A DNA stretch of 36,901 bases from a virus. A model generated the notes under the pieces. That model saw nothing but the letters and a program-made list of their open reading frames with translations. It had not been told where the DNA came from and ran no database searches. The translations under genes were made by a program, and so were the position numbers. Shown one piece after another: positions 1 to 19,912 of the stretch (position 1 is the stretch's first letter; each line of letters starts with the position of its first letter). The stretch lies in the IMG/VR virus record IMGVR_UViG_3300005537_000043, positions 1 to 36,901 of that record, one strand, 5' to 3'.

Positions 1-538
1 TGCCGACCCAAATCGAGAATCCGAACGGGTCATCCCAATTCCAGTAAGCAAGGGCGCAGCATGTCATTCGTTGAGCAACCCTCTCCCAATCGACTAGGGC
101 CGATCCCATCCAAGCCAATAAAGGTTTGGCTTTGCCTTCCATTAGCTCGGTAGCTCGCCGCATAAGCGCCGTGGGGTCGTTAAGAAGCGCTCGGACACGA
201 GCTACCGCGACGGCCAGCCGGTTCACCTGTTCCACGTCGGGGTTATCGAGCCCGAGGACTTCAGCCTCCGAGATTCCCATCACGTCATAGGCGGCTGGCA
301 TGATGCCGGATATGAATGATTCGGTCCCTTCTTCCCATGCCCCTAATTGCCGCTCCACAACGACCACGCCGAGCACGTCACTTAACGCGGCGGCTAGACG
401 TTTCTGATCCCATCCGGCGGATAGACGCGCAGTCTTCAGCCGCGAAGCTGCTAATTGTTGATAGCGGTCTTCCCCCGTTTGCAATTTGATTATTATTCCT
501 AGTGGCGCGTCTTCTTGCGCGTTTTGAGCCGTTATCAA
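1..538 (-). CDS. XRE-family HTH regulator (partial, runs off left edge)
   Basis: This frame is open on the minus strand from a TTG at 538 to the window edge (about 179 codons, C-terminus missing). GGAGGAG lies 8 nt before the TTG, which fixes the start. Residues about 30-85 read as a Cro/CI-type helix-turn-helix: SRLKTARLSAGWDQKRLAAAL, then LGAWEEGTESF and a VMGISEAEVLGL tail. The rest is helical and Trp-rich near the edge, perhaps an oligomerisation domain. It lies downstream of, and on the same strand as, a second HTH gene, so the two probably form one leftward immunity transcript. It is the best candidate for the phage repressor or its antagonist. The HTH call is fairly sure; the repressor role is inferred from position. 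Confidence 0.72.
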   Translation of the reverse strand, partial: MITAQNAQEDAPLGIIIKLQTGEDRYQQLAASRLKTARLSAGWDQKRLAAALSDVLGVVVVERQLGAWEEGTESFISGIMPAAYDVMGISEAEVLGLDNPDVEQVNRLAVAVARVRALLNDPTALMRRATELMEGKAKPLLAWMGSALVDWERVAQRMTCCALAYWNWDDPFGFSIWVG

Positions 539-6066: not shown

Positions 6067-6750
6067 GTGACAAAACCGAGGCTCTTGGATCTGTTCTGTG
6101 GTGCTGGCGGCGCGGCGATGGGCTACCACCGCGCGGGGTTCGAGGTCGTGGGTGTGGACATCAAGCCTCAACCGCACTACCCGTTCGAGTTTCGATTGGG
6201 CGATGCACTGGAACCGAACCCGGCTCGGCGCTGCTACGCGTGGTCTAGCTTCGACGCCATCCATGCCTCACCGCCATGCCAGGCATACAGCATTGCCAAC
6301 AACATTCACCAGAGAACCGACCACCCGAGGTTGATTGAGCCTACACGTGAGCTCCTGAGAGCCTCTGGACTGCCCTACGTGATTGAGAACGTGCCCAGGG
6401 CTCCGCTTGTCGATTGGGTGAACGTGTGTGGCCTTGCGCTCGGCCTGAACGTCAAGCGTCACCGCTGGTTCGAGTCGAATCAGGTGCTCTTCGGGACAGA
6501 GTGCCCCAAGGGACATCCGGGTGACTGGCTGCTTGTGTTCGGTCACACCGTCCTAGAGCGCGGCCATCAGATCGGGCGCACAGCCAAGAACGGGCCGATC
6601 ATCCGCCGCAAGCACGTAGGCACCGACCGTGGCCGCGCCGCTATGGGTATCGACTGGATGAACCGGGACGAACTCTCGGAGTCGATCCCGCCGGCGTATA
6701 CCGAGTTCATCGGCAAGCAGCTCATGGAGGTGATCTCAGTTGCAGCCTAA
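6067..6750 (+). CDS. DNA C5-cytosine methyltransferase
   Basis: 227 residues from GTG 6067, directly after the previous stop. Motif I DLFCGAGGAAMGY (8-20) binds SAM, motif IV ASPPCQ (67-72) carries catalytic Cys71, and motif VI ENV (107-109) follows. It is shorter than bacterial C5 enzymes (usually over 300 aa) and has little target-recognition region, as is common for phage orphan enzymes. The GTG-rich codon use matches the upstream methyltransferase. Probable role: modifying phage DNA against host restriction. The stop overlaps the next TTG. Confidence 0.9.
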   Translation: MTKPRLLDLFCGAGGAAMGYHRAGFEVVGVDIKPQPHYPFEFRLGDALEPNPARRCYAWSSFDAIHASPPCQAYSIANNIHQRTDHPRLIEPTRELLRASGLPYVIENVPRAPLVDWVNVCGLALGLNVKRHRWFESNQVLFGTECPKGHPGDWLLVFGHTVLERGHQIGRTAKNGPIIRRKHVGTDRGRAAMGIDWMNRDELSESIPPAYTEFIGKQLMEVISVAA

Positions 6751-11028: not shown

Positions 11029-12905
11029 GTCGCGAAGATTTCACCAAGGAGTCGATCTTCTTGAGGGCCGCACTCACCTACGCCGCGCGAGGTTGGGCGA
11101 TCTTTCCCCTCGGCATGCGGAGCAAGAAGCCGATAACCGACAAGGGCGTTCTCGACGCCACGACGGACGAGGCGCAGATTCGCGCATGGTGGAAGCAATA
11201 CCCGAGCGCCAATATAGGCATCGCGACGGGCGCTAGTGGACTTGCGGTGTTAGACGTTGACAAGAAGAAGGCCGATCACGAGCGCGACGGCATGGAGAGT
11301 CTGCTTGAGTGGGTAGCGACCCATGGCGCGGATATCCCCGCGACAGTCACGGCGTATACGCCTACCGGCGGCGTGCATCTTCTATTCAGATATGACGGCA
11401 ACGAACTAGGCCCGGCGCAGGATGTTTTCGGTAAGGGCTCAAACGTCGATCTTCGAGCGGCGAACAGCTACATCGTTGCCCCGCCGTCGATTCACCCTGA
11501 TACCGGCACAGCGTACAAGTGGGACAAGAACGCACACCCGGCGCGGGTTGAGTTGGCGAATTTGCCGGATGCCCTACTGCGCAACCTAACTACTGCAAAA
11601 CCTACCGGAAACGGTATAGATCGCAGTAGTGAAGCGCCGGAAATCATCGAGGACGGACAAGACGCATACGGCGCGCGACAGGCAGCGGTCCTAGCTCGGA
11701 AGGGATTCGGTAAGGAGGAAGCCCGCGCAGCACTAGAGGCGATGATCGAAACCCGCTTCGCCGGAGGCTGGACGGGGCTCGATGCGCGCCGACCGTGGAA
11801 GGCGGGGGACGTTGAGCGCTGGCTAAAGGGAGCATATGAAAAGTTCTATGACCCCGACGCAGGCGACAGTCAAACCGAGGAACAAGAAGCAATCGCGGGG
11901 CTCGGATTTACTGAACCGGGCACATTTACCGGATCAGTAAATAAGGCCGAAACAGGCAACAAGCCGAAGCAAAAGCTCGACGGGATTACCGCTGACGAGC
12001 TACAAACACAGGAGTACAAACCGCTCAGGTGGGTAATCAGCGACCTCCTACCTGAAGGCGCGTCGATTCTCGGCGGTAAGCCAAAGGTCGGTAAATCATG
12101 GCTCACACTCGGTCTAGCGTCGGCCGTGGCGGGCGGCGAATATGCCCTTGGCGAACTACCAGTAACTAAGGGTGAAGTCGTCTACCTGGCCCTTGAGGAC
12201 GGCAGGCGACGGCTACAGCGGCGGCTAAAGAAGATGCTTGGCGATAAGCCCTGGCCTAAAGGCTTGACGTTCTTCACGGAATGGCCCCGCGTCGATCAGG
12301 GCGGCATAGAAGAACTCGACAAATGGCTAGCCGAGCACCCGAAGGCGCAGTTAGTCGTAATCGACACCCTGAAGCACATTCGAGCGCCGGAGTCGGCAAG
12401 GATACAGGGCTATGGCGCGGACTACGAAGCAGTCACGCCACTACAGCAGTTAGCAACCAAGCACGGCGTAGCGGTCCTCATCGTGACTCACCTACGCAAG
12501 CTCGACGCCGACGACCCGCTAGACACCGTACAGGGCACGCTAGGCATTAGCGGCGGCCTTGACGGTACATACGTCTTTAAGCGGCCGAAGGGCAGCCTCA
12601 AGGGGACGCTCTACTACCGAGGCCGCGACATTGAGGAAGGCGAAAAAGAACTCATCTGGAAGGAAGGCGAGTCGATGCTTTGGCGGCTCAGTGACGGAAA
12701 CGACGAATTGCCTAAGCCGGGCGACGTGGTTCTAGACGCGATCAAGCCGGGAACGACAGTAACGCCGCAACAGCTAGCCGACACGCTCGGCTTACCGGCC
12801 GATACGGTCCGAAAGCGGCTTGAGCGGCTGACGGAATACAGGCAGGTAGTGAGGGTCCGAAAAGGACACTACGCCTTACCTGAAACGCCGCTCGACACCT
12901 TCTAG
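11025..12905 (+). CDS. Primase-polymerase / RepA-like helicase fusion
   Basis: A 626-residue fusion. Residues 10-190 are a bifunctional primase/polymerase domain: GWAIFPLG, TDEAQIRAWWKQYPSANIGI, the metal-binding DVD (77-79), TPTGGVHLLF with His118, and VDLRAANSYIVAPPS. Residues about 320-525 form an AAA_25/RepA-like ATPase: Walker A GGKPKVGKS (350-358), Walker B LVVIDT (443-448), VLIVTH and the GTLGISGGLDGTYVF region. The C-terminus (about 565-620) looks like a winged helix (TPQQLADTLGLPADTVRKRL) that could bind the origin. It primes and unwinds phage DNA. The iteron array begins one base after its stop, so it is the natural candidate for the origin-binding initiator. Confidence 0.9.
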   Translation: MSREDFTKESIFLRAALTYAARGWAIFPLGMRSKKPITDKGVLDATTDEAQIRAWWKQYPSANIGIATGASGLAVLDVDKKKADHERDGMESLLEWVATHGADIPATVTAYTPTGGVHLLFRYDGNELGPAQDVFGKGSNVDLRAANSYIVAPPSIHPDTGTAYKWDKNAHPARVELANLPDALLRNLTTAKPTGNGIDRSSEAPEIIEDGQDAYGARQAAVLARKGFGKEEARAALEAMIETRFAGGWTGLDARRPWKAGDVERWLKGAYEKFYDPDAGDSQTEEQEAIAGLGFTEPGTFTGSVNKAETGNKPKQKLDGITADELQTQEYKPLRWVISDLLPEGASILGGKPKVGKSWLTLGLASAVAGGEYALGELPVTKGEVVYLALEDGRRRLQRRLKKMLGDKPWPKGLTFFTEWPRVDQGGIEELDKWLAEHPKAQLVVIDTLKHIRAPESARIQGYGADYEAVTPLQQLATKHGVAVLIVTHLRKLDADDPLDTVQGTLGISGGLDGTYVFKRPKGSLKGTLYYRGRDIEEGEKELIWKEGESMLWRLSDGNDELPKPGDVVLDAIKPGTTVTPQQLADTLGLPADTVRKRLERLTEYRQVVRVRKGHYALPETPLDTF

Positions 12906-12977
12906 AACGGACAGTAACGGACAAAACAACGGACATACAAGTCTTAACAAGGGCAACGGACAGGAACGGAAAAAAGG

Positions 12978-13010
12978 CCGTTTTCCGGTGTAAATGTCCG
13001 TTAGTCCGTT
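12978..13010. repeat. Left arm of a 33-nt inverted repeat
   Basis: It is the reverse complement of 13186-13218 with one mismatch and contains one inverted iteron and one near-copy. Spacing between arms is 175 nt. Confidence 0.8.
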
Positions 13011-13110
13011 GTGAGTTCAACGAACGGACATGACCCTGTAAATCGTATTCAAACACAACGGACATAACAACGGACAAAGCGCTCAGGAACGGACAAAAGG
13101 GCTCTCGGGC

Positions 13111-13167
13111 CTGATATCACACGATGTTAAGAAAAAAGAAGTAGTGATAATAGCTTAGATAGCTTTG
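13111..13167. other. AT-rich segment, candidate DNA-unwinding element
   Basis: 57 nt with 18 G/C by hand count, against a high-50s background, containing an A6 run and a TAGCTT direct repeat (13151, 13160). It sits between the main iterons and the right inverted arm. Confidence 0.55.
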
Positions 13168-13185
13168 TCCGGTGGTTGATCTTGG

Positions 13186-13218
13186 AACGGACTAACGGAC
13201 ATTTACACCCGAAAACGG
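13186..13218. repeat. Right arm of a 33-nt inverted repeat
   Basis: It carries one perfect and one near-perfect AACGGACA and mirrors 12978-13010 with one mismatch. It lies just before the next gene and is read through if that gene starts at TTG 13176. Confidence 0.8.
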
Positions 13219-13223
13219 CACAA

Positions 13224-13643
13224 ATGGAGGTTTTGGCACGCTTGCCGATATCGCAAACCGCAATAAGCCCGATGGTGTTTCAAAAGCAGTTTGACCAGTG
13301 GCTAAAGCAGCACGAGGCGGCTAAGCCGTTTCATACCCTGCGGGAGCTAGAAGCTCGGATCAGGGAAGGCGACCGGAAGATAGGCGCGGCTCTCAAGGCG
13401 GGCAACGTCACGCCGAAAGATGACAAATACAAGCAGGCGATGGCAAAGCTCGAAGGGCTCAGGAAGGAGCGCGATGAGCTACGCCGGACGGCACAGGTTC
13501 CGCACCTGGCAATGGCGGTAGTCCATGACTTCCTGCGTGCGACGCGAGGAATGGGCCTGAAGGCCGGTAGCAGGATTGAGATTCAACTACCCGGCTCGAT
13601 AGACCTAGCCGTGGACTTGAGCGACGAGGAACCGCCGTTCTAA
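13224..13643 (+). CDS. Origin-proximal protein with SSB-like acidic C-tip
   Basis: 139 residues from ATG 13224. A TTG at 13176 is the alternative, but the added residues would just translate the inverted-repeat arm. Neither start has a good ribosome-binding site. The middle is helical and charged (LRELEARIREGDRKIGAAL, then MAKLEGLRKERDELRR); the end is VDLSDEEPPF. Acidic residues followed by a terminal Pro-Phe resemble the tip of bacterial SSB that docks on replication partners. It may be a replication accessory or loader recruited to the origin beside it. No catalytic motif seen. Confidence 0.6.
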   Translation: MEVLARLPISQTAISPMVFQKQFDQWLKQHEAAKPFHTLRELEARIREGDRKIGAALKAGNVTPKDDKYKQAMAKLEGLRKERDELRRTAQVPHLAMAVVHDFLRATRGMGLKAGSRIEIQLPGSIDLAVDLSDEEPPF

Positions 13644-18361: not shown

Positions 18362-19912
18362 TTGTTCGACCAGATAAAGGCCGACAACGCGGTTAGGTTC
18401 CTACAGCACCTAAAGCACAGTAAGGGCAAATGGGCCGGGGTCCGCTTCGAGCTTCTGCCCTGGCAAGACAAGATCGTTCGAGACATCTTTGGGACCGTCC
18501 GAGCGGATGGCCTGCGGCAGTACCGAACGGCATATGTCGAGATTCCCCGCAAGGCCGGTAAGTCACACCTTGCGGCCGGTATCGCGCTTGACTGTCTCTT
18601 TGCGGACGGCGAGGCGGGCGGCGAAGTCTACCTTGCGGCCACTGACCGGGATCAGGCGTCGATCGTCTTCGGTATCGCGGCGGAAATGGTTCGGAGTTCT
18701 CCGACCCTACGCTCACGAGCGAAGATCATCGACTCATCGCGTCGAATTATCGTCACAAAAGGGCGCTCGTCCGGCTCAGTCCTTCGGGCTATCCCGGCCG
18801 ACGCTCCCGGCGCGCATGGCTTCAACGCCAGCGCGGTTATCTATGACGAGCTACACGCTGCGCCAAACCGCGAACTTTGGGACGTACTCACTACTTCAGT
18901 AGGCGCTCGCGAACAGCCGCTTTCAATCGCTATTACGACGGCAGGCTTCGACCGCGAATCTATTTGTTGGGAACTTCACGAGTTCTCACGGCAGATTCTC
19001 GAAGGCGTCATAGAGGAGCCGACGTTCTATCCCGTCATCTTCGCAGCGGCCGAGTCCGACAACTGGAAAGATCCGGCGGTATGGGCGAAGGCGAATCCGA
19101 GCCTCGGCACTTCCGTTTCGTTGGATTACTATGAATCGGAATGTCGCAAGGCGCAACAGCTTCCCGCCGAGGAAAACCGATTCCGGCGCCTTCTCCTCAA
19201 TCAATGGACGACGCAGGATTCCCGGTGGATTCCAATCGACCGGTGGGACGCTTCGGCCGGAACGGTTGATCCCGCGACACTTCGCGCACGCCCTGTCTAC
19301 GCGGGCCTTGACCTCTCCACGACTACGGACCTATCAGCGCTTGCCCTCGTATTCCCGCCTGACCGCGAGGACGGCGAATACAAGGCGCTATTCCACTTCT
19401 GGATCCCCGAAGCAAAGCTAGCTGAACGGAGCCGGATTGATCGCGTTCCGTACGAATCATGGGCCGGTCCTGGCGGTTACGTGACCGCGACGCCGGGTAA
19501 TGTCGTTGATTACGCCTACATTCGGCGCGATCTCAATGCGCTTGGTCGCGAATTTCCGATGTTGCGTGAAATCGCGTTCGACCCTTGGAATGCGACACAT
19601 CTAGCGCTTGATCTCGAATCCGACGGCTTCACAATGGTTCAAGTTCGTCAGGGATTCGCGAGCCTGTCGGCTCCGACGAAAGAGCTAGAGCGCTTAATTC
19701 TTGAGACTCGCTTACATCATGGCGGTAATCCCGTCATGCGCTGGATGGCGAATAACGTTGCGATCAAGCAGGACGCTGCTGGCAACTTGAAACCTGACAA
19801 GTCCAAGTCAACGGATCGCATCGACGGCGTAATTGCTCTCGTCATGGGGCTAGATCGCGCCTCGCGACACTTGGCATCCACTTACGAATCTCACCGCTTA
19901 TTCGTGCTCTAG
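18362..19912 (+). CDS. terL: Terminase large subunit
   Basis: 516 residues from TTG 18362 with AGGAGG upstream. ATPase domain: Walker A IPRKAGKSH (61-69), Walker B AVIYDE (158-163) and the coupling segment SIAITTAGF. Nuclease domain: YAGLDLSTTTDLSAL (Asp317), IAFDPWNA (Asp407) and STDRIDGVIALVM (Asp485/488). It pumps DNA into the prohead and cuts it at the genome end, docking on the portal encoded downstream. It belongs to the Terminase_1-type group found with P27 small subunits and HNH. Confidence 0.95.
   Translation: MFDQIKADNAVRFLQHLKHSKGKWAGVRFELLPWQDKIVRDIFGTVRADGLRQYRTAYVEIPRKAGKSHLAAGIALDCLFADGEAGGEVYLAATDRDQASIVFGIAAEMVRSSPTLRSRAKIIDSSRRIIVTKGRSSGSVLRAIPADAPGAHGFNASAVIYDELHAAPNRELWDVLTTSVGAREQPLSIAITTAGFDRESICWELHEFSRQILEGVIEEPTFYPVIFAAAESDNWKDPAVWAKANPSLGTSVSLDYYESECRKAQQLPAEENRFRRLLLNQWTTQDSRWIPIDRWDASAGTVDPATLRARPVYAGLDLSTTTDLSALALVFPPDREDGEYKALFHFWIPEAKLAERSRIDRVPYESWAGPGGYVTATPGNVVDYAYIRRDLNALGREFPMLREIAFDPWNATHLALDLESDGFTMVQVRQGFASLSAPTKELERLILETRLHHGGNPVMRWMANNVAIKQDAAGNLKPDKSKSTDRIDGVIALVMGLDRASRHLASTYESHRLFVL

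Follow-up and report, generated by a model that had tools for sequence, protein, structure and literature searches.

The stretch at 12906-13223 of IMGVR_UViG_3300005537_000043, an IMG/VR virus contig with terminase, portal, HK97 capsid and tape-measure genes, is very probably a phage replication origin, and the gene preceding it is very probably a dedicated initiator, whose binding, melting, helicase-loading and priming functions are inferred. The window, as used below, is the whole of this 36,901-base record; IMG/VR contigs are assemblies. The array of short repeats, its position and recurrence behind AAA_25 genes, and the covariation between repeat and helix in Prim-Pol/AAA_25 relatives are directly observed. 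The original prediction read this region as an origin-initiator module, and that reading is supported by the recurrence and by the helix/iteron covariation, with physical binding and origin firing remaining inferences.

The initiator gene matches primase and helicase families in PHROG, and the proposed fusion of a Prim-Pol domain with a helicase is borne out by Pfam, which finds both PF09250 and PF13481 in it (Table 1). Its C-terminus, suspected from the outset of being a winged helix, is indeed predicted by AlphaFold2 to adopt such a fold. In the model of residues 535-626 (three sequences), the order of elements is helix-helix-helix-strand-strand, with pLDDT mostly around 80 over residues 565-617. 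The best Foldseek matches for this domain are mostly winged helices of the MarR/IclR/GntR type, at modest E-values of 0.002-0.02, and HTH_20 is matched at residues 569-606 (E 8e-5, below the Pfam cut-off). The segment ADTVRKRLERLTE is presumed to be the recognition helix, on the basis of its position in the model and by analogy with the iteron-covarying helix of relatives. Elsewhere in the window, the large terminase (18362-19912) is about 52% identical to terminases of gut Blautia/Faecalimonas/Oscillospiraceae phages, and phage records contain no close relative of the replication gene. A short C5-cytosine methyltransferase-like ORF (6067-6750, 227 aa) matches the Pfam model only at its start and is possibly truncated or split.

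Directly behind the initiator gene, AACGGACA occurs in ten exact copies (nine direct, one inverted) within 12906-13201, and the first of them begins at the base that follows the stop codon TAG (12903-12905). Both the count and the position agree with the original prediction, which was also right that near-copies are present, although these number four, each with one mismatch, and not three. The iterons consist of an 8-nt core with no conservation of the flanks. A genome-wide count, suggested earlier as a check, establishes the array as unique, with only two further exact copies in the rest of the 36.9 kb, at 2418 (-) and 24487 (+). AACGGACA clusters far more than any other 8-mer in the window, reaching 10 per 320 nt compared with 3 for the next unrelated 8-mer, and in 10 dinucleotide shuffles of the window such clustering never exceeded 3 in 320 nt.

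The AT-rich stretch that accompanies the array, estimated beforehand at about 32% G+C, has 31% over 13110-13160 and is a probable unwinding element. Two features of the region had been missed. Iterons flank the AT-rich stretch on both sides, the right set being small (one exact and two near copies), and an inverted repeat with 54-nt arms, the longest of its kind among 56 cluster representatives, encloses three iterons together with the AT-rich stretch. The most plausible start of the next gene is the ATG at 13224, which leaves about 318 bp non-coding. An Rfam search of the array region matched no recognisable RNA. Cumulative GC skew climbs past the array to about 16.5 kb, with no sharp switch at the array itself.

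Table 1. Features of the putative initiator gene and origin region (window coordinates; brackets mark iterons with one mismatch, a minus sign those on the - strand)
Feature	Coordinates	Strand	Basis or remark
Fused primase-helicase-initiator gene (initiator role inferred), 626 aa	11025..12905	+	Pfam: Prim-Pol and AAA_25 (RepA-like); predicted C-terminal winged helix
Prim-Pol domain, residues 16-182	11070..11570	+	Pfam PF09250, E 1.2e-42
AAA_25 ATPase/helicase domain, residues 317-494	11973..12506	+	Pfam PF13481, E 5.7e-36
Predicted winged-helix DNA-binding domain, residues 565-617	12717..12875	+	AlphaFold2, Foldseek
Presumed recognition helix ADTVRKRLERLTE, residues 592-604	12798..12836	+	Third helix, before the wing strands (model)
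Left iteron set, AACGGACA	12906..13095	+	Starts: 12906, 12916, 12928, 12955, (12965, AACGGAAA), 12995(-), (13003-, AACGGACT), 13023, 13057, 13069, 13088
Right iteron set	13166..13201	+	Starts: (13166-, ACCGGACA), (13186, AACGGACT), 13194
AT-rich stretch, least stable 60 bp of the genome	13110..13169	.	Nearest-neighbour stability scan of the whole record
Inverted repeat, left arm, 54 nt, imperfect (87%)	12977..13030	+	
Inverted repeat, right arm, 54 nt	13166..13219	-	
Next gene, 139 aa, ATG at 13224, no family	13224..13643	+	End of the non-coding, putative origin region

The resemblance of the C-terminal domain to MarR/IclR-type winged helices, which are mostly transcription regulators, and the location of the array between two co-directional genes would also suit an operator or regulatory site, through which the winged helix or another phage regulator controls downstream transcription or regulates its own gene, with no origin present. 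The array lies behind the initiator gene, however, and not at a promoter; up to 10-13 sites are combined with the least stable DNA of the genome, and arrays recur behind helicases in circular plasmid records. Fusion of a DNA-binding domain to both a helicase and a primase follows the logic of a replication initiator, which adds to the points that make a purely regulatory site improbable. Some regulation through the same iterons is compatible with an origin.

In the model with the most support, the C-terminal winged helix would bind the AACGGACA iterons, whose two sets flank the AT-rich unwinding element, and several protomers, binding cooperatively, would open the AT-rich stretch. The protein's own AAA_25 (RepA-like) helicase ring could then be loaded onto the exposed strands, where the fused Prim-Pol domain would make the first primers. 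Because Prim-Pol would prime after a helicase that loads itself, one protein and about 300 bp could form the core of a self-contained replicon. No binding, melting or replication data for any AAA_25/iteron pair were found in the searchable literature.

Recurrence of the arrangement was assessed with a motif-agnostic test, in which any exact 8-mer present at least four times was sought in the interval from 350 nt upstream to 450 nt downstream of the stop codon. The AAA_25 genes were gathered by protein similarity only, because the count of AACGGACA triplets gave no evidence; one scan alone provided 584 relatives. An array was present at 71 of 82 AAA_25 loci in a first collection, compared with 17 of 824 windows taken from other parts of these loci. 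In a second collection of 26 new non-redundant loci, examined at the same threshold, 14 had an array, as did 6 of 289 control windows. Across all non-redundant loci that were not chosen by motif, the proportion is 56/76 against 10/418 non-overlapping control windows (Fisher p 4e-46), so that the search for paired 8-mer arrays beside homologous genes, proposed earlier as a check, was strongly positive. The window gene itself meets the definition of the class, having an AAA_25 domain, a predicted C-terminal winged helix and an 8-mer present at least four times around its stop codon. Near the stop codon there is likewise an excess of inverted repeats 16 nt or longer (24/56 vs 6/348), and the least stable 50 bp of the locus, or nearly so, lies within 400 nt of the stop in 24/56.

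Among the relatives tested, Pfam places Prim-Pol together with AAA_25 above its cut-off in L339, L296, L304, L259, L264 and L265, besides the locus L002 described below. Arrays also occur in annotated isolates, including Rhizobium phages RHph_X2_25 (GCGTGACA, 13 copies) and RHph_N65 (ATCTCCGC, 12 copies) and Roseobacter phages CRP-831 and CRP-406, the last of which has a TOPRIM primase in place of Prim-Pol (Pfam) and an array nonetheless. No array was detected in the annotated phages BFK20, Jersey, Andre, Archimedes, Taco, RDJL3, MR14 and others, all of which carry homologous Prim-Pol or AAA_25 genes. Since many homologue-bearing phages are without a detectable array, the gene-plus-array layout is not universal; BFK20, Jersey-like, mycobacterial and streptococcal relatives, in which none was found, were dropped as further examples.

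The number of AACGGACA triplets was rejected as evidence of conservation. More than 119 viral contigs contain such triplets, but a reversed-motif control was saturated too and many of the matches are coding repeats, which makes the count meaningless. An AAA_25 match within 225 nt of the array, or overlapping it, was found at 14 of 119 AACGGACA loci (four clusters) and at 1 of 119 controls. Three of those 14 loci (L061, L076 and L040), missed by tblastn with the window protein, have AAA_25 confirmed by Pfam. A degenerate DNA pattern search gave four loci, and an alignment of eight distant relatives was dropped as a search query, its conservation being too low. Other AACGGACA arrays were observed in different settings. 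In L013, L026, L030, L067, L082, L106 and relatives, a gene of about 811 aa that matches AAA_25 weakly contains the array in its 3' coding end, some 90-240 nt upstream of the stop codon. Arrays located 5' of Mu-type transposase genes (PF09299; L080:851-983 and L084:3260-3320) are perhaps end-binding sites of the transposase, an unrelated context, and those of L007, L029 and L090 have C- or G-rich spacers and lie in gaps beside small genes of unknown function.

The search for close relatives of the window protein yielded only L002, plus two distant partial matches in prokaryote genomes. The L002 protein is about 50-51% identical to the window protein over the alignment and likewise combines Prim-Pol and AAA_25. 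It is followed, 18-186 nt past its stop codon, by ten copies of a different 8-mer, CTCCGACA. The position of the array is thus kept and the repeat changed, which is how a site co-evolving with its own protein would be expected to look. Inside the L002 array (L002:6838-6935), perfect 20-nt inverted arms lie 58 nt apart; the downstream origin of pRN1 has a 21-nt stem and a 58-nt loop, possibly a coincidence.

Repeats vary among elements, mostly ending in ACA after variable bases, as in CGGGACA, CCGGACA, CGTAACA, GCGCAACA, CGTGACA, TCCGACA and others. Their relation to the putative recognition helix was assessed within a branch whose members share only about 20-25% identity with the window protein, which itself has few close comparators in its own branch. 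The C-terminal domain of this branch (L296 and 27 relatives) is a high-confidence predicted winged helix, in which the covarying helix is the last before the wing; Foldseek gave only weak PDB matches for it. Among 33 non-redundant members of the Prim-Pol/AAA_25 type, iteron similarity correlates with helix identity (r 0.67), and the correlation persists when helicase-domain identity is held constant (partial r 0.64, p 0.0002), compared with 0.26 for the converse, iteron against helicase with the helix controlled. With 46 members, the partial correlation for the helix is 0.60 (p 0.0003). These p-values are only indicative because the sequences are related, and natural swaps are the stronger argument. 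One such pair, L259 and L266, has identical AAA domains, helices that are 38% identical and the iterons CGTAACA and TGCAACA, respectively. In the other, L296 and L304, the AAA domains are 92% identical, the helices 12%, and the iterons read CGGGACA and TCCGACA.

A partial rule can be read from helices of the form (K/R)XxAFxR. Lys at position X goes with G at iteron base -3 in 11/11 cases and Gln with C in 4/4, and Arg is mixed. This rule was spotted in the first set, and the second set, with three Lys cases and one Gln case, agrees with it. Whole-iteron prediction on new loci reached 0.61 from the nearest helix, 0.55 from the nearest helicase and 0.48 at random; as the nearest helix performs only modestly better, no full recognition code is claimed.

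The covariation points to the fused protein itself as the reader of the repeats, an inference from sequence comparison in which binding is not directly seen. It bears on two further explanations. Clustered short repeats also mark centromere-like sites, and an iteron-bearing site of this kind has been published for a Bacillus phage; the array could be a site for partition (parS-like), packaging or recombination, with a different protein binding it. Such a third protein would leave unexplained the covariation, in relatives, of the repeat with the C-terminal helix of the helicase itself. Moreover, the large terminase gene is 5 kb away, and no partition-family match was found among the window proteins scanned, a subset of the total, leaving this explanation highly improbable. 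It is equally hard to credit that the origin is opened mainly by another initiator, either host DnaA or a second phage protein, with the fused protein recruited only as helicase and primase. DnaA is also used by many iteron plasmids (PMC4980987), but the covariation of helix and iteron suggests that it is the fused protein that reads the repeats.

An AAA_25 helicase gene with an array is also present in circular records from plasmid collections that bear phage genes. These include pMRAD08 (L427; CGGACA in ten copies, a terminase and the helix KRKAYKR), Caenibius p1 (L428; CTTCCGCA in 12 copies, terminase) and the Klebsiella plasmid pKp_Goe_795-4 (L429; GTGCGGCA in five copies, capsid gene). 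Filed as plasmids but carrying the terminase or capsid gene beside the helicase-array unit, these three are likely phage-plasmids or satellites. A Methylobacterium currus plasmid has GCGCAACA in six copies, and Tsukamurella plasmid 5, whose C-terminus resembles that of the window protein, has a short repeat and an inverted copy after the stop codon. The plasmid records fit a helicase-array unit that supports extrachromosomal replication, without proving it. Two candidates were set aside: pATHE01 (L424), whose weak repeat, in only four copies, does not exceed its own control windows, and the Nonomuraea match L425, which is in several pieces, has an AAA_25 ORF that stops within the helicase and shows no array.

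Taken more broadly, the evidence makes it reasonably likely, with less assurance than for the window origin itself, that a large, undescribed class of phage and phage-plasmid replicons exists, in which a primase, AAA_25 and a winged helix are joined to a cognate array of 7-8-bp repeats (mostly NNNNACA) at the stop codon. With the helicase kept constant, C-terminal domain and array would move as one specificity cassette, and a legible code (for example, Lys-G and Gln-C at base -3) would determine the identity of the replicon and, presumably, its incompatibility. AAA_25 initiators with iterons have no earlier description in the literature searched, which left out most subscription papers and all preprints. 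The origins of most uncultured phages are unmapped, and if the rule holds, sequence alone would be enough to locate both the origin and the binding site of its initiator in hundreds of phages. The origin layout, previously described as exclusive to phage-inducible islands (PMC6092414), would then extend to another helicase family, to ordinary phages and to phage-plasmids; the data suggest that others besides these islands share it. Matched helix/iteron pairs, together with the natural swaps, supply data from which a winged-helix recognition code could be worked out, and are also useful for engineering orthogonal minimal replicons.

The Reps of classical iteron plasmids such as R6K, F, P1 and RK2 are not known to be helicases or primases. 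The window unit resembles these plasmids in having a winged-helix initiator and repeated sites beside an AT-rich unwinding element, with binding inferred for the window, and differs from them in its 7-8 bp iterons and in carrying helicase and primase within the same protein. Classical iterons measure about 17-22 bp (PMC4980987).

Fusions of an archaeo-eukaryotic primase (AEP), a RepA-type helicase and a winged helix have been described in mobile elements (Kazlauskas 2018, PMC5862659), with a domain order that is the same in principle as in the window protein. That paper speculates that the C-terminal winged helix of PolpTN2 helps to recognise the origin. No origins or iterons are described in the passages searched. 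The window primase matches PF09250. In pRN1, ORF904 combines an N-terminal Prim-Pol with a C-terminal winged helix, and the origin lies just downstream with a large inverted repeat (PMC4234260). The window protein has the same N-terminal Prim-Pol and predicted C-terminal winged helix, and its array, also with a large inverted repeat, lies just downstream of the gene. The helicase of pRN1, in contrast, is SF3 and not AAA_25, and its origin is stated by the authors to be a 100-bp stem-loop without iterons (PMC4234260), whereas in the window 10-14 iterons dominate over the 54-nt inverted repeat.

The published system that works most like the window unit is the Rep/ori pair of SaPIs and PICIs. In SaPIs, iterons lie directly behind the helicase gene and are read by the Rep C-terminal domain, a cognate logic already published (PMC7581432), and in the PICI ori an AT-rich region is flanked by two iteron sets (PMC6092414). 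The window meets the 3' position of such an origin, itself inferred here, with an array 1 nt after the stop codon of the initiator-helicase, and its iteron sets (12906-13095 and 13166-13201) are likewise arranged around 13110-13165; support for iteron binding by its C-terminal domain is comparative only. A primase is sometimes fused to Rep in these islands (PMC7581432; PMC6092414), and in the AAA_25 class it is Prim-Pol (PF09250), or TOPRIM in CRP-406. PICI Reps have DUF927 or Primase_Cterm/D5-type helicases (PMC7581432), whereas for the helicase part of the window protein Pfam finds AAA_25 alone. In contrast to phage-dependent islands, the elements that carry the AAA_25 unit are tailed phages and phage-plasmids, which bring a capsid and a terminase of their own. 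As its helicase family differs and its carriers are phages, the window unit is not a member of the SaPI/PICI group, close as the two are in their apparent mode of working.
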